From Cochliopodium minus (lineage: Eukaryota > Discosea > Himatismenida > Cochliopodiidae): a stretch of DNA of 32,534 bases. Where the stretch lies: contig JAMYWO010000127.1 in assembly GCA_024220525.1 (NCBI GenBank), forward strand, positions 1 through 32,534, in the 5' to 3' direction. The notes under the pieces are model-generated. The model worked only from the letters and a program-made list of their open reading frames with translations. It made no database searches and was not told where the DNA came from. Made by a program: the position numbers and the translations under genes. This document shows positions 1-31,209 of this stretch, piece by piece (within the stretch, counting starts at the first letter, position 1; each line of letters begins with the position of its first letter).

Positions 1-64
1 AATGATGTTTGACTTCGCAGATCGAGACGGGATGCGGTATATTCATCATGATATGATCGTAACC
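1..64 (-). rRNA. 5S ribosomal RNA, 5' part (cut by window edge)
   Basis: Read on the minus strand from position 64, the sequence starts GGTTACGATCATATCATGAT and continues with the 5S core CATCCCGTCTCGATCTGCGAAGT. This lines up with the first half of eukaryotic 5S rRNA (GCCTACGGCCATACC..., then CCCGATCTCGTCTGATCTCGGAAGC) and is closest, from memory, to Dictyostelium 5S. The remaining half lies left of the window. 5S RNA belongs to the large ribosomal subunit and is made by RNA polymerase III from internal promoter elements, which would lie mostly in the missing part. It points the same way as the U6 gene about 320 bases away. Confidence 0.82.
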
Positions 65-380
65 AAAAGCTTTCAATTAATTAACTATTTCAAATCAAAC
101 CTTTTTTAATAAATTTATTGTTTTGTATAATAATGAATTTTAAAATATTACATCCACCTATATCATATCTGTTTCTTCTTCTTTTCTTTTTACAAAATTT
201 AATTTGATCAGTGAAATGTTATAAAAAATAATACAACTAATCAAATTTAAAATTTATAATCATAGAACCAAAATTTCAATCCATCAAGAACCATTCTAAA
301 CAATTTACTTTCAAATAACTATTATCGAAGAATATATAATAATCGTTTGAATAAAGATTGAAGATTTGGAAATGAAAAAT
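65..380. other. AT-rich spacer between 5S and U6 genes
   Basis: No open frame or RNA gene recognised. It would hold the upstream region of the 5S gene and the downstream flank of U6. Confidence 0.6.
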
Positions 381-385
381 AAAAA
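381..385 (-). terminator. RNA polymerase III T-run after U6
   Basis: On the minus strand, five A then five T follow a short AACTT-GAG-AAGTT hairpin at the U6 3' end. A run of T is the usual polymerase III stop signal. Confidence 0.6.
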
Positions 386-486
386 TTTTTAACTTCTCAA
401 GTTATTGTGTCATCATTACGCAGGGACCATGCTTATCTTCTCTGTATCGTTGCAATGTAAAGCATCGTCTCTGATAGTCACCTACC
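383..486 (-). ncRNA. U6 spliceosomal small nuclear RNA
   Basis: On the minus strand the core reads ACGATACAGAGAAGATAAGC, then ATGGTCCCTGCG and GATGACAC. These match U6: the ACAGAGA box (445-439) that pairs with the 5' splice site, the AGC catalytic triad, and the internal stem-loop. The 5' end was set from the usual distance to ACAGAGA. A five-pair hairpin there, GGTAG-GTGA-CTATC (486-473), has a GNRA-type loop. Length is about 104 nt, as expected for U6. One base of the internal stem-loop differs from the common form (AATGAT for AAGGAT), so a divergent paralogue or young pseudogene is possible. No TATA box or upstream element was identified with confidence. Confidence 0.88.
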
Positions 487-1716: not shown

Positions 1717-4700
1717 ATGAGCAATTTTAACTGGAAAGAATTATTTGAAAAATTTGAAGATATAGATAATGATTTGAGATTCATGGGATTATCTGATCTC
1801 ACCAAAAATTTAGAAAAAGGAGGATTGGATATGCAAGGAGTGACAGAAGGTAGAGTGGTCACGTATTTGTTGAAATTATTTTTCGATACATCAACTGATG
1901 TACAAGGTATAAGAAAATATAAATTAAGATATTTTTATGCGTTAATAATTTTGATTCTTATAATTTTTGAAATTCTTATCAAAAAGGTGCTTCTGTAAGA
2001 TGGTAATAAAATTTCATTAATATACACTTTGATATCATCCAACAAACAACAATGAAATTATATTCAATGAGAGATCTATAAACTCATATACTATTAATCA
2101 ATTTAATTTGTTAATAATGGGTTATATAACAAATTTGATTCTCAATATTTTCTTTATAATTAAAAATAAAGCTTAATACCATTGACAAATAAACTTGAAG
2201 AAGAAAATATAACAAAAATACTCCAAACATTATCATCATATATGACATCAGAATCAAAATCAAAGTTTAGAGAGACTTGTTTATTGGGATTGAAATCGAT
2301 TATCTCGGTGGTAAAGAAGGATTATCAAGAATCAGTCGGAAATTTTCTATTTCAAGAAATCACAAAAGGATTTAAAACTGTATTAAAATATTAAAAGTTC
2401 AAATTTCATTTAAATCTTATTCATTTCTTTTTGAAAATTAGGGAAATGAAGAAATATCAACAGATGCACTTGAAATTTTGACAGATATGATCACAAAGTT
2501 TCCACAAGTAATGTCCAATCATTCTGTGAACATACTGAAAGCGATCATGCCATTTCTTTCAAGCGTAAAACAAATAAACGCAAAGAGAACAATAAATTGT
2601 TTGGAAGCTTTGTCCATGTACTTAACTCCCAACCTTTTCGACAATACAATATCTAGTATTCTCAAAGAAATGGAGACAAATCCAAAAAAGAAAAGCGTTT
2701 GCATTCAAGCATTAGGCTCTTTGGCAAAAACGGCTGGTCCTAAGTTGGCCAAACACGTTGAAGCGATAAGTCCTCAATTAGTTAGTGCGATAGACTCAAA
2801 AGGAGATTCAAAAGAAGACATCATCTTGAAAGAAAGTGCGATTCAGTGCTTCAGATCTTTTTTCTTGAGCTGCAGATCCTCTGTTGACAAATATTTTGAT
2901 ACAGTCCTCGAAAAAACACTTGAGTATCTTTCTTTTGATCCCAACGTGGCTGAAGATGATAGCGAAGACATGAGTGATGAAGAAGACGATGAAGACGATG
3001 ATGACGATGATGATTACGATCAAGATGATATTATTGACGATAACACTTGGCAAATCAGAAGGGCCAGTGCTAAAACACTCAACACCATCATTTTCACCAC
3101 TCCTTCCAAGTCGAAAGAATTATGCGAGAAAATAGGACCTGCTGTAATCAAAAGATTCAACGAAAGGGAAGAGACTGTGAGAGGAGAAATTTTGGAGCTT
3201 TTCAGGCTTATCATCAAGCAAGTTTCTACACCCAAATTAAGAAGCATTTTGAGAGGATGGGTTCCAAACATTATTTCTAATATTATAAAACAACTCAAAA
3301 TCGCTCCCAAAATCAAAAACAATAATGTCACTGTTTCCATCTTTTCCATGTTGAAGGAAATATGCTCCAGTGATCAAAACATCTTTGAAGATCATCTTTC
3401 CACTTTGTCTCCTTCTTTGAACGAGTTCATCGTGAACAAGAAAAACATTTCTTTGCAACAAGAGTCCTTGAATCTCAGCATCAACATCTTCAAAACACAC
3501 AACTCCGATCTTTTAAAGAAATTTGTTGCTGATTTTTCCAAATCTACTCTTGTTTCTTTGAAGAGTTCCAACTTGCAAGTCATTTCCTCTTCCATCTTGT
3601 TCGTTGGACAAATCTCGAAGATCACTGCAGAAGGAGAAACCTCTTTGATCGAAAGTCTTTTGAACGGAATCCTCCCATTCTACGAAGCAACCGACATCGA
3701 CCAAAGTGTCAAAGAAAACTCCATTTCTTCCGTTTCTCAGATCATTTACCACTTTGGAAACAAAATCCAAAACACCAACAAGATCATCTCCACATTGGTT
3801 GAAAGGCTCAACAATGAAGTCACCAGACCTGCAGCTATCAACGCAGTGAATCTCATTACCAAATCCCCTCTCAAAATCGACATTTCAGAGTTTGAGAAGG
3901 TTCTCTTCACCGAATTGACCAACTGTCTCAGATTGTCCAACAGACAAACAACTACTTCTTCCATTTCTGCTTTGACGTCCCTTGTAAACAACTATGGAGA
4001 GAAATCTTCTCACTTCCCTTCACACAGCGTCTCTATTATTGAACAGGGTTGCAAGTTGTTGCAAGAAAACGATCTTTATGTTTCTCAGTTGGCTCTCAAC
4101 TTGATTTCTTCTGCCATTAATGCTCACCCTAGCTCCTTTCAGTCTGTCAACCATACATATTTCATCAAGAGTGTTGAGACTTTGATCAAGAGTCCTCACA
4201 TGGAAGGGGCTTCTCTTGAATCTCTTTCAAACTTGTATAAAAGCATTTTAAATTCAAATACAAAAGGATTTGGTAAAATTATTCTATCACTTATTTTTTA
4301 TTTATAATTTTTATATTTATTCTAATTTCAAAGATTAATAATTTTTTCATTATTTTTTTTTTATTTTTATTTTTTATATTTTATTTTTTATTTTATTTTT
4401 TATTTTGTTTATTATTTTTTATTTTGTATTCAGCATACGGAGATTTAATGTCACCTTTACTTAAATTGGCCAATGACGAGAATGTCAAAAAAGAAAACTC
4501 CTACTCTGGAATTTCCACATGTGTCGCTTCCATCACCCTCGCCACCAAAGAAGAAAACAGAAGCAAAACAATCACTTATTTCCTCTCCTCCATCAAATCT
4601 TTGAAAAGCGATGCAGTGATCGCTTTGTATTGTATTGGTGAAATTGGAGGGAGAATTGATTTGTCTGATAATTTTGATGCTTTGCATGAAGTTATTTCCA

Positions 4701-6539
4701 AGTCTGTTTTGTCTAAAAACGAAGAAATTATTAATGCTTCCTCTTTTGCACTTGGTAAAAAAATAAAAAAAAAAAGTTATTCAGAAAGAATAAATTTAAA
4801 CAGAGATTCGGATATTTAGATAATCAAATTAAAATTAGAAATAAAATTTAAAATAAAATTTAAAAAGATTTTTTGTAAATAAAAAAATTTTTAAAAAGAA
4901 CAATTTTAAATAAAAAAATGAAAATGAATAAATTAAAATTAAAATTAAAACTAAAATTTAAAATAAAATTTGAAATAAAATTTGGAATAAAATTAAAAAG
5001 AATTTTGTAAATAAACAAAGAAATATTTTTTTTAAAAAAAGAAAATTTAACCTTATTTAAATTAATTATTTTTTGTAGGATCCATTTGTTTCGGGAACTT
5101 GGAAAAATATCTCCCAATTCTCCTCAAAGATGCCCAATCCGACAACGAGAAAAAATACGCCATCCTCAACGCCCTCAAGCTCGTGATCTCACACTCCGTC
5201 TCCGACCCAGAGAGATCCAAACAAATCGAGAAGAATTTGGATCAGATCGTCGATCTCTTGTCGAAAATCAAAACCGACGAGACCATTTCTCGTAATGTCG
5301 TCTCGGAGTGCTACGGGAAACTTTTCACTTTGAACCCCGAGAAGCTTTTCTCCACCTTTTCTGAGAACCTCAAGTCTGACAACGTATCGGTCAAATCTTG
5401 CATTATCAGTGCTCTTAAATATGTTCGTTTTGATCAAGGTGAATATTTTTATTCTTTTTTTTTTATTTTTATTTTATTTTTTTTTTTCATTTCAATTTAA
5501 TTTTGTCAACTTTATTTTTAAATTTTTATTTTTTTTTCATTTAATTTTTATTTATTTTTAAAACTTTATTTTCATTAAACTTTTATTTTTCATATTAATT
5601 TATGACTGATCATTACTCCAATCAAAAAAATTTCCCTTATTATTTAAAAAAATCATTAAAATTTTATTATTTTTGTTAATTATTTTCGTTTTGATTCTGA
5701 CAGATAATCATGTTTTGTTTGATTTGTTGAAATCCAAAATTGACAATTTTCTTGGATTAATTTCTGATGAAAATGTCTCAGTAAGAAGCTCGGTTTTGTC
5801 ATCACTCAACTTTGTATCTAGCAGAGCTCCTTCCATTGTCCAAAACTACATTTTGTTGAATAATTCTTTTTTTCCATCTTTTTACAACCAAACCATAATA
5901 AAACAAGAGCTCATCAAAACTATTGGTAAAAAAAAAAATTTAAATATAAAAAATTAAAAAATAAAATGATAAAATTAAAAAATAAAAATTAATTTTTTTC
6001 ATTAGATCTTGGACCTATCAAACATAAAGTAGATAGTGGATTGGGTAAAAAAAATTTTGATTTAAATTGATTTCACTTTTTGAGTTTCTTTTTAAATTAT
6101 TTCTTTATAATTTTTTATTATTTTTAATTTTATTTTATTTCTAGAATTGAGAAAACTTTCTTTTCAATGCATGATCACCTTTCTCGATAACATCCCGGAA
6201 GTCGTCAACTACTCAGAATACCTCAAATGCTTCTCCTACGCCCTAGTGGACGACGAAGAGATCAAGCTCCTCTGTTACATGTTGTTGGTGAGACTCTCCA
6301 AGCTGTGTGGTCCTCTTGTGCTTGAATCTCTCCCTTCTTTCATCGATACAATCATTTCCGATATTCAAAAAGGTGGTGACACTGCTGTCAAGAGAAACGC
6401 TGTTCAGGCTTTTGCTTCTTTGAGTTTGCTTCCTAACGTTTCTGGCGTTTCGAAGAAGTTTGATGAGGCTTTGTTGAATTTGGAGAAGTTTGGTATTGTT
6501 GAACTCTTCAAAAAGTCTAAATTGGAGTTACAAAATTGA
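1717..6539 (+). CDS. CAND1: Cullin-associated NEDD8-dissociated protein 1 (CAND1)
   Basis: Exons: 1717-1906, 1987-2002, 2172-2379, 2442-4272, 4434-4754, 5079-5438, 5704-5925, 6006-6044, 6145-6539. They join in frame to 1,193 residues, against about 1,230 in human. CAND1 is an all-HEAT-repeat solenoid that wraps unneddylated cullin-RBX1 and exchanges substrate adaptors of SCF ubiquitin ligases in cytosol and nucleus. Identity rests on co-linear matches over the whole length: RFMGLSDL near the N-terminus, the acidic loop (coded about 2949-3045), SPLKIDI, YNQ...KQELIK, GPIKHKVDSGLELRK and LLVRLSKLC. Exon 2 is only 16 nt and exon 8 is 39 nt. Seven of the eight introns split a codon, mostly after the first base of a Gly, Ala, Asp or Glu codon. 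The exon 3/4 junction is least certain and drops a few residues relative to human. Confidence 0.93.
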
Positions 6540-11106: not shown

Positions 11107-11991
11107 ATGGATAAACCACAATTCAAATTGCCAATGAGAGAAATACAACCAATAAAGAAAATGATAGGGAGAAATATCAAAGTGATAAAAGATAATAACA
11201 ATAATATGCTAAGCAGCACTCCACCGATCAAAGATAAAAACAAGATGAATGGAAATGGGGTGTATAGCACCTCTCCAAACAAAATGGGAGGCATAAATAT
11301 ACCCAATAAAGAACTTCCAATGAAAAAAGACAATATGGGCTATAATACTCCTCCAAATGATTCCATAACGATCAATAGAAACAGTTTAAGAAAATTGAAT
11401 CAGAATATCTCTTCATCAGTCCCACTCATATACAATATGCCAAATAATCAAACCAACAATGGAAATGGTAACAATGCATTTAATTTTTCATCTCCACAAG
11501 TGATCAAAATCAATAACAATGAAGATGATAATAATGCAACGAATGATATATCTTCAAATAATAATAATAAAAAATATAATTCACCTAATTCTCCCAATAC
11601 ATTAGAAAAAGAGAAATACAATCATGAAATGCCCATTTCGAGGCCCAAATTGATGAAAATCAAAATTCCCATCAACAAAACACTTCCCCTCAAAGGAAAG
11701 ATGAAAAGAGATAATATCCTCAATTATGAATTCGCTGAATCTCCTCCACTCACACCTATAGAAACTGATAATGTTGATGAACTCAAAAGAATAATTTATG
11801 ATAAGGATAAAGAAATCCAAAGATTGCAACATCTCTTGAAATTGACAACCAACAATAACAATAATTGTAATAATATCGATATTTATTCCGAAGATAATGG
11901 CGGGACTTTGGGAAGAGGTTCCATACAGATTTTTAGTGATCCTGTAATTATTGTATTAGATGAAATAATAAAAAACCTCGAATTTCTTTGA
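11107..11991 (+). CDS. Asn-rich, low-complexity protein with a short C-terminal coiled coil
   Basis: Single open frame of 294 residues, not recognised. Residues 1-200 are disordered and rich in Asn, Lys, Pro and Ser, with Asn runs and repeated S/T-P sites (SSTPP, SPNSPNTLEKEK, ESPPLTPIE) that could be proline-directed kinase targets. A short helix with heptad spacing follows (VDELKRIIYDKDKEIQRLQH), which may dimerise. The C-terminus is hydrophobic (PVIIVLDEIIKNLEFL). No intron is needed. The frame survives 885 bases in A/T-rich DNA with no stop, which supports it as a real gene. It ends in TGA 164 bases before the convergent RhoGEF gene. No function is proposed. Confidence 0.72.
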   Translation: MDKPQFKLPMREIQPIKKMIGRNIKVIKDNNNNMLSSTPPIKDKNKMNGNGVYSTSPNKMGGINIPNKELPMKKDNMGYNTPPNDSITINRNSLRKLNQNISSSVPLIYNMPNNQTNNGNGNNAFNFSSPQVIKINNNEDDNNATNDISSNNNNKKYNSPNSPNTLEKEKYNHEMPISRPKLMKIKIPINKTLPLKGKMKRDNILNYEFAESPPLTPIETDNVDELKRIIYDKDKEIQRLQHLLKLTTNNNNNCNNIDIYSEDNGGTLGRGSIQIFSDPVIIVLDEIIKNLEFL

Positions 11992-15100: not shown

Positions 15101-17265
15101 AAAAATTTACAAAATTTAAATGAATAATTTGAATAAAATGAAAATTTTTTTTACTGTTAACTATTTCGACTGTATTGATGTCTGCAAGCCAAGTGACATA
15201 CTTTGCTAAATAAGATTCTCCAGACATCTGTTTCTTCTTGACGGAAATGACCAAAACATCACTAAAAAGAAAAATGAAAACAGTTTCCTTTGCATTGTCT
15301 TCTATAGTAAACTCTGCACTGTCCTCCCTTATGTAGTATCTATGACTTGCTACAAAGCTGATACGCTCCACAGGTTTACCGGAGATTAACTCTGTGAGTT
15401 GGAAGGCTCTCATCGCTCTTTCTGACTTTCTTTTCGCTTCATTTAAATAGTCGCTTATCTCCATGATTTGCTGGAGTGCCGTGTCTAAGGATTTATAGTC
15501 CGGATGTTCTTCATTTGTACAACTGATCAAATCCCTCATCAAAAGTGAATATCTTTTAACAATTTTTTTTTGATGTTTATTAAAATAATATTAAAAATAA
15601 ATTAAAATAATTTTTTTAAAATTAATTGGGCATACCTTGGAATCTATTATTTTTTTGTAAATGAAAGTTTAACTTTATTACTAAATAAAAATTAAAATTT
15701 TTACTCTTTGAACAGGCATGATCAATAAATCTTTCAATGGAAGTCCCTTAACTCTTGGATCTTTTTTGGCTTCTTCGATAAACTTGAACAAAGAAGATCT
15801 AGTCTCCTGCAGTTGATTCAGAAGGGAGTTGGCATTAGGATAGCCATTGACAAAGAGTGTATATGTTTTTAAAAATACCTTTAATAAAGGTTAAGAAATT
15901 ATCAAGTTATATGGTGGAAAAATAAACTTTACATAATAATTTTATTTTAATTTTAATTTTTAATATTAAATATTAATAAAAAATTTTTTACAGATAATTC
16001 CGAGAATACATGTCCCAATTTTGTTTTCACAGGATGGTATTCTTTTGTTGCTATTGTTAATTTTTGTAAAAGAATTGCGTTACACCCTACTATAGGTTCT
16101 ATGTATGGAAACACTATCTTCAATTCTGCTTCTGTCATAATGGCCGTTTTTGGATCGTTTTTTAGCATTACACGAAAAGGATTGAGATATGTATCGAGTA
16201 ATGCTTGCATATAATTTACATAATCCTCTTCTGTTTTCATTAATTCTTGGACGATATGCCATCTCCTTTTTTGCTTTGATACTATTTTACATTAATAATT
16301 ATTAGATATTTAAAATACAGCCCCAATATCGATATGAAAAAATGATATTATGCTGATATCTCCAATATATCGTTAAAATAAATTCAATGAAGATTTGAAA
16401 AACAATTATTTTGATGAATATAAGTTAATATAGCTTAAATTTCCATAATTTCCCAATATTTCAAATAAATTCGAATGATTTATTGAATATCAATCAAGAT
16501 TCGTTAATCAACATTGATATATGACTCGTATTTTGGTTATAATTATTGAAATAATTCTTTTTTTTTTTGGGCAAATTAAAATTAAATATATTTTCATAAT
16601 CCCTCTCCTTATTTTGTTTTCCTCGTATATAATAGCAATATTATTATTTTTTGTTTACATAAACTCTGATACAGTTTTTTAGCTTTCTTTGCTCTTTTAT
16701 ATGATTGAGCTTTCACAATATATCGCAGCAGATTTTTTGATTTGAATATTTCATTCAATTCATTCTTTCTCTCTTCCGTCAATGCCATGTTTTTTGGTTT
16801 TTCCTCTTTTATACTTTCCTCCTGTATACTCTCCTCTATTTCATCACTTGTTTTATTGGATGTACTATCAATAGATGAAGGAGGGGTTATGGTGGTTGAT
16901 TTATTATCCTCCTCACCATTAGTTTTGATCATACCATTTCTTTCTTTGAAAAATATTTTATCGCAAAATGCAAAGGCATTCTCATCCAATTTTAATTCCT
17001 CATCATTCTCATCTACCAAAATGTATTTCTCGCCTTCCAATTTACTTTTATAACACATTTTATCAAAGACATCCTGGAATTTCATTTCTCTCTTGATGAT
17101 CATTGATGATTTTTTTCCATCAGGAAGATATATTACAGCTGTTTTAGTTTTTGATATGTTCTTTATAGGTGCTGTTAGAGAATTCTTTCTGATTTCATTA
17201 AATTTATCATTTATTTTTTCTTTTATATCCTCCACTTCAACAGAATGATCTTTATCATCAGACAT
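12156..17265 (-). CDS. Multidomain RhoGEF: RBD-like, IQ, DH-PH, WD40, Pro-rich, single zinc finger
   Basis: Exons: 17265-16659, 16281-15992, 15878-15705, 15643-15636, 15552-15155, 15003-14579, 14498-12156, giving 1,414 residues. In order: a ubiquitin-like Ras-binding-type fold (about 40-108, KTAVIYLPDGKKS...); an IQ-like basic helix (about 178-202); a DH domain (about 208-400) with RWHIVQELMKTEEDYVNYMQ, LLIMPVQRIPRYSLLMRDL and HPDYKSLDTALQQI; a PH domain (about 415-560); a WD40 propeller (about 620-900, e.g. ISVWDIDDGK, FTGSYDKHVCVWK); a long Ser/Pro-rich region with a poly-Pro run and PKVPPKVPPKTPP; and a final CFVC...HQKC zinc site. DH-PH proteins load GTP on Rho/Rac, so this protein probably steers actin, with Pro motifs offering SH3 sites. 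The zinc site is only half a LIM domain. Exon 4 is 8 nt. Confidence 0.9.
16282..16658 (-). other. First intron of the RhoGEF gene (377 nt)
   Basis: Much longer than the other introns of this gene. It contains several GATATC/ATATCGATAT-like palindromic words (about 16325-16375 and 16475-16520) able to form hairpins. No open frame or known RNA was recognised. A regulatory role is only a possibility. Confidence 0.5.
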
Positions 17266-21949: not shown

Positions 21950-24900
21950 ATGAGCAAACCTATCATTGCCAATAAGAGGTAAATATCTAACACAATTGTT
22001 CAAAAATTATATTTGATTAAATCTTATTTAATATATCAGTGGTGTGGTCATAGATCAGAGTGGTAAAAGGTAAAAATCAATAGAATATTTTTCATAAATA
22101 TTTATATTATATTTTGCTTAGAGTATAGAATGTTATAAATAACATTAAAATAACATCATTTACGAATATATATTAAATGGAAATCAAGATATTCTCAAAA
22201 AAATCAAGATCTTTATAAATTTCTATATAAGCTATCAATATCTTATAAATAAATTAATCAACAAATTTTATCAATAAAACAAAGATTATATGGATTTGAT
22301 GCCGAATTATATCAAAAGATGGCCAGCAAACAAGATCCAAATTTTGAATTGAGAATATCAAAATGGTTGCAGGTAGTATTGGAAGTAGAATTACCAGATG
22401 AAAAGGATTTATGGGTATCTTTGAAGAATGGAATTTTATTATGTAAATTAGTGAATAAAATAAAACCGGGTAAATAAAATTCAATATAAATTTCAATTTT
22501 AAATTTCAGATTTTTTTTTTAATTTCAATTAGGAACAATCAAAAGAATTAACTTGACAAGATTACTTCCTCTCACCGAAATGGACAATATCAAATTGTAC
22601 TTAGAAGCAATCTGGTTGTTAGGAGTTCCGGGATCATCTTTCTTTGTAGTTTCTGATTTGCATCAAAAAAAGAACATGCTTCAAGTAAATCTTTTAAAAA
22701 AACTAATCTCTTTCGTTAACATTTTTTTTTTGTCCCTCTTAATAAGGTTGCTAATAACATCGCTGCTCTTTCGAAACATGCAATCAATCTTGGGTTTAAA
22801 GGACCTACAGTAGATGACATGGAAGTTGAAGAAGTTACTGTCACTCAATCTCTCAAACCATGGGAAGTCCAGCAAAGGGAGGTAGATGACCCAGTAAAAT
22901 TAGTTGAAGAAAGGAATCAGATACGAAAGGATAATGAATTACTCAAGAAGGAGAAGGAAACTTGGAGAGACCAAATCAGAAATTTCAAAAGTGATTCTGA
23001 AAAAGAAAAGATGAAGTTGTATTATGCAAAGTCCGATCAGGAGAAAAAACTAAACCTTGCAAGAAATTCTTCCTCACAAATTTCTACTGTCAAACAGGAG
23101 GATATAGAAAAGGAAGAAGAGGAGGCAAAGAAAAAAATCATGGAGATTGAGAAACTTTACACTGAAAAGATAAAGAATTTGCAAAAAAAGCTGAATGATC
23201 TGAACCTTGATTTTGATAAATTGGAAGAGAAGAACAACAAAGAATCTCTTGAATACAAGAAACTCATGTCTAAGCTCGAAGTTCCTCTTAGAAAACCTCC
23301 ATCGCTCGTAAACTCTTCTCCTAATCTCCCAAAGAAACCAGAAGTCAGTGACAAACCTCCCACAAGAACCCCTCCTCCTTTAGAAATAAAGGGAGTAACC
23401 CAAATCAAAAAGGTGGATGAGAAATCTTCGAAAAAGAAAGACGAAAAGTCTGAAGGAGATTTATTTGTCGAAACAGGTACAGTTGGAATTGAAGATATTA
23501 GTGACTTGCAATCTCAAATCGAGAAATTATTAAAAAACCAGTCTGTGGAGCTCGAGGATGTCCACAAATTCAACAAGTTTCTCACTTTGGACGAAGGTCG
23601 TCGTGTTTTCACCTATGTTTTGAAGAATGCTACAAAGAGAGCACAATCTATTTGTTTGAATGAGAATAGTTTCGATTTGTTACTTTACCTTGTAAACACT
23701 ACTTTGTTTCACATGGATCTTTCTCAATCTGTAAATTATATCACTGCCAGTGTTTTGTTGAGAGGTTTTTTTTTATTTTTATTATTTTTTTTTATTAAAA
23801 ATTAATTATTTTTTTTTTAGGATCTCGTGCTATTCATAGAATGTTTGAAGGAGAAAAAGAATATTTAAAAAAATTCATTTCAAGTCATGCTGTTTGGAAT
23901 GATTTGACTTTTTGGGATGAGTACTTCTGGAGTGGTAAATAATTAATAAACCAACAATAAATCATTTAACTAATAATCAATTAAATAAATAGGAGTTACA
24001 ACTGCTTTCAGAAAAGAATTTAAATCATTTTTCATTGTTGCACAAGAAGGAGGTTTAAATCCAAAAGAATCTACCTTTTTAACACATGTAAAACAATTTT
24101 TTTTTTCTTTATAAATTTTCAACCAATTTTTTTTTTTAGCACACAGCAAATTATATTTTTGAAATGAGTTCTTGGGGAGTAACATCCCAAAATCAACAAG
24201 AATTTGCGATGGTGTTGTTCGATAAGTTGAAATTTAATTCCACCCAATCCCAAGAAACTTTGATTTTGCTTCAAAAAATGTATCATGAACACTTCAAGAG
24301 CGGAGAGGCAGAAAGATACAAAAAAGAAGCAGAAAAGAAAAAAAAAATGAGAGAAAAGAAACAGAGCAATATAAATGGTGCCATTAGTTCGTGGTTCGGT
24401 GATTCTGGCGACTCTAAGAACAGTTCTTTTTTGAATTTGTTTTCTGGAAAGAAATCGGATAGGAAAAGTTCTGTATACAGCAGAACTTCATTTTCTGGTC
24501 CAACAAACTATTCTTCTTCTAAATCTGTTATAATTTCCAGGGACTCTAATTCAAATGTACAAGAAGTAAACAAAACAACAGGTATGATTGATTTAAAATT
24601 AAAATTAAAATTATTAATTTTTTAAATAAAAAATAAATAGATTCTATCACCCAAACACCTGAGATTGCAAAGTCTGAGCCCAAATTAACTTCTCTCACTA
24701 AAAAAGAAGAGAATACAAAAGAATTAAGTAGTTCTGAAAACAATTTATCAGTCAACCAAATTAAGAATCGTACAGTTTCAACACCCCCAAAACCCTCTCC
24801 AAATAAAAATGATGACGTGGAAAAACCATCTAGACCTCCACCACCTCTCATCAAGAAAACAACTTCAGGTGAAAACACCACAACAAAGAAAGAAGAAGAA

Positions 24901-26709
24901 GTGAATAAACCATCCAGACCTCCCCCATCTCTTAACAAAACTGAAACTCCAACCAAAGAAACTCCCAAAACAGAAACACAAAAGGATACTCCCACTAAAG
25001 ATTCACCAAAAAAGGAAGAACCTTCAAAGAACAATGTACCTAGCCTTCCTGAAGTAGAAGTAATTGCTCCTTTTACTGCAGTTAAGTCTTCCCAAATGAC
25101 TATTAAAGAAGGAGAGATTTTATTTTTGGAGGACCAGACTAACTCTTCTTGGTGGATCGTCATCAACGAAGAGGGTAAAAGAGGATTTGTTCCTGCCAAA
25201 TTTTTGAAAAAGAAGGGGGAAGTTGTTGTAGAAAGTCCTCCGAAAGAGGAAGAAAATGTCAAAGATCAAAAGACAATCGAACTCGAGAAAAGAAGGGAAG
25301 AGAGAAGATTGCGTATTTTACAAGAGAAGGAAGAGGAGAACAAAAAGAATCAGAGTGGAGATAGCAATGGTAAGAATAATGTTGAAAAAGAAAAAGAAGA
25401 ACAAAACAAAAAAGAAGAGGAAAAGAAGAAACAAGAGGAGCTTAAAAAACAGCAAGAAGAACAGAAGAAGAAAGATGAGGAAAAGAAGAAACAAGAGGAG
25501 CTTAAAAAACAGCAAGAGGAGCAAAAAAAAAAGAAAGAGTTGGAAGAACAAAAGAAAAAAGAAGAGGAAAAGAAGAAACAAGAGGAACAAAAGAAAAGGG
25601 ATGAAGAAAAAAAGAAGAAAGAGTTGGAAGAACAAAAGAAAAAAGACGAGGAGAAGAAAAAGCAAGAGGAGCTTAAAAAGCAAGAAGAACAAAAGAAGAA
25701 AGAAGAGGAACAAAATAAGTCTACAACTACAACTACTTCTACTTCCACAACTAATAAAGTCGGAACAGGATCTAGGATCTCGGGACTTGCTGCAAAGATT
25801 AATCTAAATCCTATGATGATGATGGGTGGGATGCCTCCTAAGAGAGTTCAAAAGAAGGAAGAGGAGCCTGTGATTGAAGAGAAAGTCGAGAAGAACGAAG
25901 AAAGCAGTGAGGTAAAGGATGGCGACAAGCTCGTTGATGTAAGAAAATCTAGACCTAAGAGGCCAGCTACTCTTAAGAAGAAGACGATAAGAGAAATGAA
26001 TGAGAAAGAAGAAGATGAAAAAAAAGAAAGTGAGAAAGAAGAAGTGGAATCGAGTACTCCCACTTCTACGCCTAAAAGTGAAGATGAAGGTGAAAAGAAA
26101 TATCCGCCATGTCCGAAATGCAAGGTTCCGTTGTCTTTGGAAAGCGAAACTCAATACAAATGTTTGCCTTGTGATAAGACTTATGCCCGCAAAGTAAAGA
26201 TGACTTCTTCTGTTTCCCTCACTGAAAATGTGAACAAAAGAACAAGCACAAGAGAAATCAATAAAGTGGAAAGCAAAGAAACAGACAACAAAGAAAGATC
26301 CAAGACTACTCCTCCTAAAGTTGAAGTCAACACCACTTCCGCTCCAAAAAGTGAAGATGAAGGTGAAAAGAAATATCCGCCATGTCCGAAATGCAAAGTT
26401 CCGCTGTCTTTGGAAAGTGAAACTCAATACAAATGTTTGCCTTGCAACAAAAACTATGCCCGCAAAGTAAAGATGACTTCTTCTGTTTCCCTCATTGATA
26501 CTCCTACCGAAGACAAGAAAAAGAGTTTGGAAACCATCAAAGATTTCAAGAGTAGATCCAGTACTGTTACTAGTTCCAGTGTTTCTACTAAGGATTCTCC
26601 CGAAAAGAAATATCCGCCATGTCCTAAATGCAAAGTTAATTTGTCTTTGGAAAGTGAAACTCATTTGAAATGTGTTCCTTGCAACAAAACTTATTTGAGA
26701 AAGAAATAA
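21950..26709 (+). CDS. CH domain - coiled coil - SH3 - triple zinc-ribbon cytoskeletal adaptor
   Basis: Nine exons: 21950-21978, 22040-22069, 22285-22469, 22533-22684, 22747-23764, 23821-23934, 23993-24087, 24140-24581, 24641-26709; 1,377 residues. A calponin-homology domain (about 38-150: ISKWLQVVLEVELPDEKDLW, NGILLCKLVNKIKPG, KNMLQVANNIAALSKHA) suggests actin binding. Then come a coiled coil, a Pro-rich linker, and a helical region (about 368-610, FLTLDEGRRVFTYVLKN) that may resemble the SBF2/KIAA0513 region (weak call). An SH3 domain follows (about 827-890, EVIAPFTAVKSSQM, WWIVINEEGKRGFVPAKFL), then a Lys/Glu/Gln helix of about 150 residues. It ends with three CPKC-x15/16-CxPC zinc ribbons (about 1173, 1263, 1343). 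The Pro-rich linker has SRPPPPL-type SH3 ligand sites, so self-binding is possible. The first two exons are 29 and 30 nt. Confidence 0.9.
25390..25715 (+). repeat. Purine-rich coding repeat (Lys/Glu/Gln tract)
   Basis: Almost all A and G on the plus strand. It includes a near-perfect 60-base tandem unit (rows at 25421-25480 and 25481-25540 match almost base for base) and shorter degenerate copies after it. It encodes the long charged helix of the CH/SH3 protein. Length variation between strains would be expected. Confidence 0.85.
26074..26494 (+). repeat. Two 148-base direct repeats encoding zinc ribbons
   Basis: 26074-26221 and 26347-26494 are copies 273 bases (91 codons) apart with about nine differences by eye. 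Each encodes SEDEGEKKYPPCPKCKVPLS and the matching second CxPC half. A third, older ribbon copy starts near 26604. Recent internal duplication of a zinc module within the last exon is the simplest reading. Confidence 0.88.
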
Positions 26710-27128: not shown

Positions 27129-27932
27129 ATGAGCAAATATTTTCACGAAGGCAAATGTATTTGTGGTGGAGTCCATTTTGGAGTGAAAGAGAAAATCACC
27201 TACAGAATAGAATGTCATTGTACTCAATGTAAAAAAAAAAAAGGAATCCTCGTTTAAATATATTTCAATCAAAAATTAAGACACTATAATGCCCTCTAAA
27301 ATCCCTCTTAAAATAAAGTAAATATTTAAATTTTATTTTTGTTAGGCAGAAAATTTACAGGTAAATTTGTTTTTTTTAAAAATACAATCCTAATAATTGA
27401 ACAATGATATAACAAAAAGGGTAAAAATCAAGATTGAATATTTTTTGTGGGCTTAATATCTTTGAAAAAACAGTCATTTCGCATCGGCATTGGCGAAGAT
27501 TAACGATCCAGAAAACAATTTAGAGTTTATTAACGGTGAAAAGTTTTTTTTATTCAATTTTATTTGTGAAAAATGAATTAATGTTGATTATCAATCCAAA
27601 GATAAAGAATTGAAATGGTTCAGTGAAGAAGGGAAAGATGCACAAGTATAATAAAAAATTAAAATTAAATTAAAAATAATTTTTTTATTTTAAAATTTTT
27701 AAATTATAAAAAGAGAGGATTTTGTGGGAAATGTGGGTAAATATTCAAACTCTTTAATTTAATAACTTAATTTTTATCGAAAATGTTTTTTGTTGATTTT
27801 AGTTGCTCCTTGTTTCAAAAGGGAACAGAGAGGCAGTACTATCTGGTTTTGGCAGGATGTTTGGACGTGTCTGATATTCCCAAAACGCCAAGTAAAGTTG
27901 TTTGTTTTAACGAGAAAGGAGATTATTACTAA
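27129..27932 (+). CDS. GFA/CENP-V family zinc protein
   Basis: Exons: 27129-27228, 27346-27360, 27420 (one base), 27474-27535, 27602-27645, 27714-27736, 27803-27932. Together 375 bases, 124 residues, the normal size for this family. All seven family cysteines are present: GKCICGG (C10, C12), ECHCTQC (C29, C31, C34) and GFCGKCG (C78, C81), with the conserved CRKFTG between. Family members bind two zincs; the namesake was described as a glutathione-dependent formaldehyde-activating enzyme, but most members have no proven substrate. The one-base exon is inferred because exons 27346-27360 and 27474-27535 do not join in frame, while adding G27420, which sits between AG and GT, restores Gly39 and the run TGHFASALAK. 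If that splice is wrong, the gene carries a frameshift. Confidence 0.82.
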
Positions 27933-28612: not shown

Positions 28613-31209
28613 TTATTTTTGAGAGTTTCTGCTGGTCCAAATGAAGTCGTTGGGACTTGGGCAGTGAATTTTTTCCTTAGGACCCTCCCAGAAGGCTTCC
28701 TTGGATCCTAACTTCTCGTTCATGTTATTCCAAAGTGGGACAGTAGCTGCTTGGTGTCTAAAAAAAAAAATGAAGTTAAAAAAATAAATAAATAAAATGA
28801 ATGAAAAAAAAAATAACAATAAAATAATTTAAAAAATTAATTAAAAAATTTAAAATAATTTATAAATTCTAAGAATAATTTAATGAATAAAAAATTTAAA
28901 AAAAAACAAAACCCTTTTTCGCTCAAGTGAAAGCAGTCCATAGCAAAGAAGCTCATATCAGGCCTAATTTAAATAAAAAATGAAAAAAAAAATAAAAAAT
29001 AGAAAATAAAAAAAATGAAAAAAAAAAATAAAATTTGAAAGAAAGAAATCTAAGAGTTCGCCAAAAAAAAAAAAAAAAAAAAAAATTTTGAAAGAATAGT
29101 TTGTTACGCTCCATTAAGTTGAGGAACAAAAGTTTTGGTCATGAAAGGTTGAAGAACGACAGTGAAATTGTCAGAAGTGTATTTAGGGTCGTTAGCAATT
29201 CTTCCTGCTGCTTCAACGTATGCCATTTGTAAGATGGACACTTGTTTTCTGGTTGCTGCATCACTAAAAAAAATTAAAAAATTAAAAAATAAATGAAAAA
29301 AATTCAAATATTAAAAAATAAATGAAAAAAAATTAAAATATTAAAAAATAAATAAAAAAAATAAATTTACGCAGTTCCACATTTGCATTCGAAAGCATGG
29401 AGGAGAGTGCAAAGACCACTTTTCAATTGGAAGAGTTCTAACAAAATAAACGAGATTCAAAATATATAAAATTGTGTGTTTTAAAAAAAAAAAAAAAAAT
29501 GGAAAAAAAAAAAATGATACCAGAAACATCTATTGATTTATTTTTTTAAAAAAAAGAAATGTTAAAAGCAAATTTTAATAAAGCTTTTTTGTATGCATAC
29601 CAATGACAGGGACCAAGTTGAGGATGGTGTTAGGAAAGTTAGCGGAGATATAATTGACAGCCTCTCTCAAACGAGCCTCGTAGTTAGCAGAGCTGTAGTA
29701 ATCCCAGTTGTTACATGCATCACTAATAAAAAAAAAAAATGAACATAAAAATGAAAATAAACGAAAATTAAAAAAAAGTAAATAAAAAAAAAAAAGTAAA
29801 TAAAAAAAAAAAAATAAAAATAAAAAATAAAATAAAAATAAAAATAAAATAAAATAAAAGTAAATATAAAAAAACTTTAATTGAGAATTCATTTTTACCA
29901 AAGATCATTTCCTCCAATGAAGAGAGTGAGCAATTTGTAGCTGGTTCTGAAGTTGGAAGCCTTGACCATCATGGAGTGCAAAGTGATAGCTTGGGATAAC
30001 ATGTCGGATGCGACTGCTCCGGAAACTGCTTGGTTGTAGTGAGCACCAGAGCCTTTTATGTAAAAAAAAAATAACAAATTGAAAAATGAAAATGAAAAAA
30101 AATAAATAAAACTAAACTAAAAAAGATATAAATCACAAAAAAAAAAAATCAAACAAATAAATTAAATCAATTATAAAATCATAAAAATCAAAATTAATTT
30201 TTTTTTTGTTTGTTTTTACTTGAATGTCCTCCAGTACCAGTTGAAAAACCAGTTACGTTGGCGTTGTACATCTTGATGAGATTAGGGATGGTCAAAACTC
30301 CTCCTGCGATGTTGGAGTCTCCACCGACAGACCAGGACACTCCTCTGTACTCGGTCAACATGGTCAAGACAGATTTACTCTTTGCTCCAAATGCTTTTTT
30401 GATTAAAAGTAAGAAGAAATAAGATTTTATTTTTTGTAAAAAAAAATTTTTATTAATTTACCAGCAGTAATGGAATCTCCGATTGCTTTTTTTTAAATTT
30501 ATTCATTGAAATAAAAAAATTATAAATTAATATTTAAATCATATTATTTTTTTTACCTGCCACAACATCAATCTAAAATAAGATAATATTAATTTTATGA
30601 ATTATAATAAAGAGGTTGAGAAATTTTCTTACGAATGGATATCTGACATTATGGACATTTGTTGGTGATGGCAATCCAACTCTAATAAAATTATATAGTT
30701 TATAAAAATGAAATTATGGAGCATAAATCAAAATAATTGTTTACCTATTGAACTATGATGAATTGATGAGAATGACATGTTATATTGGTAAAAGAAATGA
30801 AAATTTATTTATTTTTTACGGTTGTGCAATTGAATGGAACAATGAGTTCTCCAGGTTCATTTCCATGTTGCTTATTTTCTTTTTCCATGATTGCTGCGTG
30901 TTGTACGAGTGTTTTGTAGAATCTTACAGCTTCAGTTTGGTTTTGGATTTGGGGATAGTGTTTCTTCATTTGTTGGTATAATATCTCTGGAAATTGTTGC
31001 TATATTTAAAGAATAAATTGATGGCTTTTTTTTAAAAAAAAATATCTACGTATTCTTCGGATTTTGCAGAGTATTCATCCAACTATAAAACAAACAATGA
31101 AAATAAAACAATCAAGAAAAAATTATATTTTTTGTAAAATCTTTTTTTTTACACATAATGCACAAGAAAAAAAGAAAAGACAAATAATCAATAATGTTGG
31201 AACTTTCAT
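28613..31209 (-). CDS. Secreted phospholipase B-like SGNH/GDSL lipase
   Basis: Fourteen exons: 31209-31153, 31082-31050, 30999-30820, 30752-30745, 30681-30633, 30572-30557, 30485-30462, 30393-30220, 30052-29899, 29722-29601, 29437-29371, 29263-29108, 28963-28913, 28757-28613; 411 residues. A signal peptide (MKVPTLLIICLFFFSCALC) is followed by the phospholipase B1 pattern: VHNVRYPFIDVVA, nucleophile block AIGDSITA (Ser119), YRGVSWSVGGD, FIGGNDLCDAC (Asn229), ECKCGT, and DCFHLSEKGH with the Asp356/His359 dyad, ending LWNNM. All SGNH catalytic residues are present, so an active secreted or lysosomal lipase/phospholipase is likely. Thirteen introns, most of 50-120 bases, break 1,236 coding bases. 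Exons 4 and 6 are 8 and 16 nt, and the catalytic block is split between the 16-nt and 24-nt exons. Confidence 0.92.

Follow-up and report, generated by a model that had tools for sequence, protein, structure and literature searches.

The window analysed here is the whole 32,534-nucleotide stretch of Cochliopodium minus contig JAMYWO010000127.1; it is AT-rich (24-39% GC in 2-kb steps) and its genes contain introns. Together with the base composition, Asn-rich proteins give the impression of an amoeba-like protist. On its forward strand lies a gene (Table 1) whose exons, joined as listed, read without any internal stop. The spliced protein matches the Pfam family GFA (PF04828) with 65.2 bits (E 7e-18), above the gathering score of 24.3, and in the PDB a single entry, 8ajq, a CENP-V/GFA domain protein, matched at E <=0.01. 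GFA/CENP-V proteins form a cysteine-rich family named after glutathione-dependent formaldehyde activation, and every one of the GFA cysteines (C10, C12, C29, C31, C34, C78 and C81) is present in the window protein. By its sequence, the gene product is a protein of the GFA/CENP-V fold.

Other features were noted along the same stretch. Rfam identified a U6 snRNA gene (379-480, minus strand) near a 5S rRNA gene (1-64, minus strand), the latter cut by the window edge. Positions 24164-26709 of the forward strand encode a predicted protein in which three similar zinc-ribbon-like units, KKYPPCPKCKV.LSLESET..KC.PC.K.Y.RK, could be distinguished by eye, preceded by a lengthy region rich in K, E and Q and by a segment resembling SH3, also recognised by eye.

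Table 1. Coordinates of the GFA/CENP-V gene, of its exons and first three introns, and of further exons of 8 or 16 nt in the window
Feature	Position	Strand	Description	Basis
GFA/CENP-V gene	27129-27932	+	seven exons (100, 15, 1, 62, 44, 23, 130 nt), exon 3 predicted; 375 nt, 124 aa	
Exon 1	27129-27228	+	100 nt; MSKYFHEGKCICGG...IECHCTQ and base 1 of Cys34; ends AAT|GTAAAA	Pfam GFA
Intron 1	27229-27345	+	117 nt, GT-AG; acceptor 8.4 bits; itself among the 43 reference introns	
Exon 2	27346-27360	+	15 nt, GCAGAAAATTTACAG; remainder of Cys34, RKFT, base 1 of Gly39	translation, homologue alignment
Intron 2	27361-27419	+	59 nt, GTAAAT...AAAAAG; last two bases are its sole AG	
Exon 3 (predicted)	27420-27420	+	one nucleotide, G; middle base of Gly39 codon GGT	
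Intron 3	27421-27473	+	53 nt, GTAAAA...AAACAG; donor rank 41/43, acceptor below all 43	
Exon 4	27474-27535	+	62 nt; final base of Gly39, then HFASALAKINDPENNLEFIN	translation, homologue alignment
Exon 5	27602-27645	+	44 nt, DKELKWFSEEGKDAQ	translation
Exon 6	27714-27736	+	23 nt, RGFCGKCG; second cysteine pair	translation, homologue alignment
Exon 7	27803-27932	+	130 nt up to stop TAA; CSLFQKG...KGDYY	translation, homologue alignment
8-nt exon, RhoGEF gene	15636-15643	-	ATTCCAAG; IPR of PVQRIPRY	ungapped against intersectin-1 PMQRVTRY
16-nt exon, CAND1 gene	1987-2002	+	ASVRC of DVQGASVRCLIPL	ungapped against solved CAND1, evqnlavkclgpl
8-nt exon, GDSL-lipase gene	30745-30752	-	TTCAATAG	reading frame alone

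The initial annotation had proposed that the GFA gene contains an exon of a single nucleotide, and its description of the reading frame was borne out when coordinates and translation were checked. Exon 2 ends in phase 1 (...TTT ACA G) before GTAAAT, exon 4 is in frame only if it starts, behind ACAG, as T|CAT (T CAT TTC), and when the two are joined straight the frame is lost, giving CRKFTVISHRHWRRLTIQKTI* with a stop after 54 codons. The sequence AAAAAG|G|GTAAAA is indeed present between them, with the lone G at 27420 and neighbouring introns of 59 and 53 nt; with this G included the frame is restored, Gly39 is formed from bases 27360, 27420 and 27474, and the coding total becomes 375 nt.

The size of what is missing at the joint can be read from homologues. 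One scan of genome contigs found two relatives, both in records labelled as alphaproteobacterial MAGs, and one scan of viral contigs with the GFA protein found no relative. Both bacterial alignments run without a gap over the joint in the pattern IECHCTQCRK-x-x-GH, the window having CRKFTGH and the bacteria CRKQSGH and CRKQAGH (across the joint, IECHCTQCRKFTGHFAS in the window against IECHCTQCRKQSGHRYA and IECHCTQCRKQAGHRYA). Since the alignment is ungapped there, the missing length is exactly one base, and since placing a G at the open position of G-?-T yields GGT, the Gly codon of the family is obtained. We also collected 23 distinct homologues of at least 85 aa from 22 loci of these two bacterial genomes (L001, L002 and the 20 loci listed for 46 matches), using a profile whose seed alignment contained the window protein. 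Position 39, gap-free in this set, is Gly in 21 of the 23 and Ser in the other two, and the cysteines are found in all 23 at six positions and in 22 at C34. The two bacterial genomes have 28 and 18 GFA-family matches, at loci such as L010 and L009; several of the matches lie in tandem, and one locus, L017, has a TGA within its frame.

All canonical ways of reaching the HFAS frame from the start codon were enumerated, allowing at most four GT-AG introns of 45-300 nt each, and 15 open chains were found. Only the chain with exon 2 and the one-base exon contains QCRK, and it alone keeps both CHCTQC and CRKFTG; its mean splice score of 14.1 bits per intron also exceeds that of every other chain, the runner-up reaching 12.3. 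G27420 is used by nine of the 15 chains, among them the six best-scoring, and in those ranked 2-6 either exon 2 or some of the cysteine motif is missing; two of them retain CRKFTG. In three of the six chains that do without G27420, at least Cys34 is lost; the remaining three preserve CHCTQC. The Pfam GFA score is highest with the one-base exon, the four full-length alternatives reaching 53.7-59.1 bits. A second HMM, built from the 23 homologues alone with the window protein left out, gave 67.8 bits with the one-base exon and 54.6-61.1 bits for the three CHCTQC-keeping chains without G27420. Skipping of exon 2 was rejected, its score with this HMM being 53.7 bits. Lowering the minimum intron size to 30 nt (21 chains) or admitting GC donors (33 chains) left the top chain the same.

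Splice sites were scored against a reference of 43 introns from ten gene models of the window curated by hand, from which the two introns under test were excluded. Intron proposals, and nothing else, were taken from a home-made gene finder; the GFA gene was not put together by this program unaided and several of its models were wrong, hence the curation by hand. The reference introns were picked by frame, homology and splice score, GT-AG ends being assumed for all of them. Left out were antisense- or spurious-looking models, the genes near 11107-11991, 16594-17265 and from 32054 onward, and, in the RhoGEF and lipase genes, the incomplete N-terminal exons. Because this set is small and partly circular (4 of the 43 introns belong to the GFA gene), the ranks that follow are indicative only: by leave-one-out reference scores the donor after the lone G (11.6 bits) stands at rank 41/43, the acceptor before it (7.2 bits) at 37/43 and the exon 2 donor at 32/43. 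The exon 4 acceptor, AAAAAACAG|TC, scores -2.1 bits and is weaker than all 43 reference acceptors, which is the chief loose end of the one-base-exon reading.

If a single intron of 113 nt were removed between exons 2 and 4, the acceptor AAAAAG|G, 59 nt in, would need to be bypassed. One of the 43 reference introns, the one of 324 nt, bypasses an equally strong AG located at least 50 nt in, and none of the 43 contains an internal donor of at least 9 bits. This longest curated intron, in the CAND1 gene (4755-5078, forward strand), has several strong internal acceptor-like AGs and might be removed stepwise. The earlier remark that the two inner introns are of normal size is correct in that 59 and 53 nt fall within the range of the reference (50-324 nt, median 83, n=43); however 113 nt is equally ordinary and size does not discriminate, so that we dropped this argument as evidence. 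A branch-site motif that would put one branch point in each half of the interval was sought, and no consensus emerged from the 43 introns, CTAAT/C occurring in 1/43; a CTAAT 26 nt upstream of the end of intron 2 is given no weight. Introns 2 and 3 resemble each other no more than expected (score 9.0 against a mean of 9.25 in 500 shuffles), and an origin by intron duplication was rejected on this similarity at shuffle level.

Among other explanations for the missing base, the most serious is that one of the exon edges lacks a base, through an assembly error or a gene-breaking mutation, that a single 113-nt intron is removed, and that AG-G-GT is coincidental. Besides the ordinary size of such an intron, the weak exon 4 acceptor would mildly favour a missed base at that edge, since an added exonic G raises its score from -2.1 to 1.3 bits. 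To evaluate the coincidence we counted stop-free frame-mending exons of 1, 4, ... 28 nt, with both introns at least 50 nt long, in 20,000 dinucleotide shuffles and in 9,782 overlapping windows cut from actual non-coding DNA (introns, and 15.3 kb of intergenic sequence read on both strands). With no demand on quality, the shuffles gave 403 such exons of any length, 202 of one base and 148 of one-base G, the real windows 446, 208 and 65. When both splice sites had to be ordinary, scoring no lower than the first quartile of the reference introns, the counts were 44, 30 and 25 in the shuffles, and the real windows gave 7 exons in all, no one-base exon among them; a summed score at least as high as observed was reached by one shuffle exon of any length, by none of one base, and by 0 of the 9,782 real windows. 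Permitting introns of 40 nt gave 1,769 exons of any quality, 205 with ordinary sites and two with the observed score (one of them a one-base G) in the shuffles, and 1,474, 45 and none respectively in the real windows. A chance rescue exon of any length and quality is thus not rare, being found in 2-15% of controls, but one with ordinary splice sites is rare, at about 0.1-1% of controls, and the observed quality occurred in 1-2 of 20,000 shuffles. Moreover, no frame break without explanation was seen in the exons of at least 300 nt that belong to the ten models or to Arf (a hand-summed total of about 13.5 kb), and assembly indels are probably infrequent in the window. A lost base would also leave a strong internal acceptor unused, in a gene that is otherwise intact. 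For these reasons we regard it as unlikely, though the least improbable of the rivals.

Three further explanations would do without the single-nucleotide exon. A single intron with non-standard ends, read either as 27361-27472 (GT...CA) or as 27362-27473 (TA...AG) with identical mRNA, would also produce ACAG-G-TCAT, there being a G at both edges. Introns ending in this way are generally very rare, all 43 reference introns can be read as GT-AG (although this was assumed in choosing them), and the well-placed AG-G-GT would be left without explanation, so that we consider this solution very improbable. Less probable still is a longer exon 1 ending at the donor at 27252, followed by a shifted exon 2, which would add 5-10 residues and which is represented by the three open chains that retain CHCTQC without G27420. 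All three rely on the donor CTC|GTTTAA at 27252 (1.3 bits), and two also on TTT|GTTTTT at 27369 (-5.1 bits), both weaker than all 43 reference donors; CRKFTGH is lost, and the Pfam score falls within the lower range already given. Equally improbable is ribosomal frameshifting by -1 near ACA GTC on an mRNA from which the 113-nt intron has been removed and whose exons are joined directly. Its product would carry Ser39, the residue of two of the 23 homologues, and would score nearly as high with the HMM of homologues (65.7 against 67.8 bits). However, no slippery heptamer of the form X XXY YYZ can be read by eye in the 0 frame of AAA TTT ACA GTC; this explanation too leaves AG-G-GT unaccounted for.

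We therefore return to the one-base exon. What the sequence itself shows are the phases, a requirement for exactly one base, the conserved Gly and, on either side of the G, splice sites typical of the window. The combination of DNA and homology (the single missing base, the sole motif-keeping chain, the ranks of the inner sites and the lower scores of the longer proteins) favours this exon over the alternatives that the initial annotation had itself listed, namely a non-canonical splice, a frameshift or an assembly error. We infer, with a probability of about 0.83, that the mRNA is made by removing two ordinary GT-AG introns (59 and 53 nt) separated by a single nucleotide, G27420 being kept as an exon and left between exon 2 (...TTTACAG) and exon 4 (TCATTTC...). 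The two introns would be recognised by intron definition and removed in succession, because both sets of splicing factors could hardly fit on one nucleotide simultaneously. On paper the sequence permits either order. Were intron 2 removed first, the CAG of exon 2 would replace the AAG of the intron and the following donor would remain AGG|GTAAAA; were intron 3 removed first, the acceptor AAAAAG|G would be altered solely at the second exonic base, scoring 7.1 instead of 7.2 bits. Since skipping of the G leads to a translation stop after codon 54, its inclusion should be constitutive in productive mRNA.

Single-nucleotide exons were said in the initial annotation to have been reported once, in Arabidopsis; this has to be corrected, since the available portions of the literature describe more of them, in APC11, VPS55, Fusarium CYP621A and placozoan mitochondrial cox1. 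The closest parallel is Fusarium CYP621A, for which the accessible text describes AG|G|GT with the G as central base of a conserved Gly codon, a passage from phase 1 to phase 2, and RNA reads (Nelson and Syed 2026, PMC12940212). This case shares with ours the core AG|G|GT, the middle base of a Gly codon, the phase 1-to-2 junction, a short interval between the flanking exons (139 nt in F. graminearum and 113 nt in the GFA gene) and detection through a frame failure inside a conserved motif. It differs, as far as that text goes, in being a fungal P450 with at least 20 orthologues and RNA confirmation, whereas here there is one gene in one genome, seen as DNA alone. The same authors suggest that such an exon can be adopted after loss of a base near a splice site within a conserved motif (PMC12940212), and by analogy a base loss near a splice site, with the one-base exon adopted afterwards, may be the origin here too.

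In plants, APC11 is described as having a one-nucleotide exon, both in Arabidopsis and in further land plants (Guo and Liu 2015, PMC4674806; PMC8831610). According to the available parts of these reports it is similarly nuclear, with GT-AG introns on either side and a single base needed for the frame, but the base is A, the interval is 422 nt, the proof comes from cDNA and reporter constructs, the single base having been exchanged or deleted in minigenes, and most land plants have it. For soybean APC11, few reads were placed by a standard aligner unless the one-base exon was given to it as annotation (PMC8831610). VPS55 likewise has a nuclear one-nucleotide exon absent from annotation, described across land plants in the accessible text of PMC8831610; unlike ours it is supported by RNA, and some lineages have both including and excluding transcripts. 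In placozoan mitochondrial cox1 one base is also required for a conserved residue, but the gene is mitochondrial and the base lies between group I introns, with another splicing chemistry, as stated in the available part of PMC5436844. In the portion of PMC12409088 that is available, one-nucleotide exons are mentioned only by citing APC11. Among the open-access matches listed, mostly judged by title and the start of the abstract, none concerned a nuclear one-nucleotide exon outside plants and fungi. The one-base exon of the GFA gene is, on the evidence of its sequence, most likely a further case of this very rare but known kind.

Very short exons are found in other genes of the window as well. 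Eight of the 35 internal exons in the ten models, the tested one included, are 30 nt or shorter (1, 8, 8, 15, 16, 16, 23 and 24 nt). In the RhoGEF gene, PVQRIPRYSLL aligns without a gap to PMQRVTRYPLI of intersectin-1, a solved protein, across the 8-nt exon; across the 16-nt exon of CAND1, DVQGASVRCLIPL aligns without a gap to EVQNLAVKCLGPL of solved CAND1. These two homology-backed exons add to the case for the one-base exon. The GDSL-lipase gene (minus strand) has two further short exons, at 30557-30572 (16 nt) and 30462-30485 (24 nt, containing the GDSI block). It is conceivable, as a tentative extrapolation from 32 kb that we hold to be rather less probable than its opposite, that whole introns are strictly recognised in this organism with no minimum exon size, that tiny exons down to one base are routine throughout the genome, and that the GFA exon is the first nuclear one-nucleotide exon beyond plants and fungi.

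A single nucleotide is the smallest exon that a spliceosome can join, and few nuclear genes with such an exon (APC11, VPS55 and CYP621A) are known from the available parts of the reports. A case with this AGGGT/Gly arrangement in another AT-rich eukaryote, such as that proposed here, would point to convergence in how these exons arise. Gene finders that impose a minimum exon size will get the genes containing them wrong, and the one-base exon of the GFA gene would give a small natural substrate for studying the order of intron removal.
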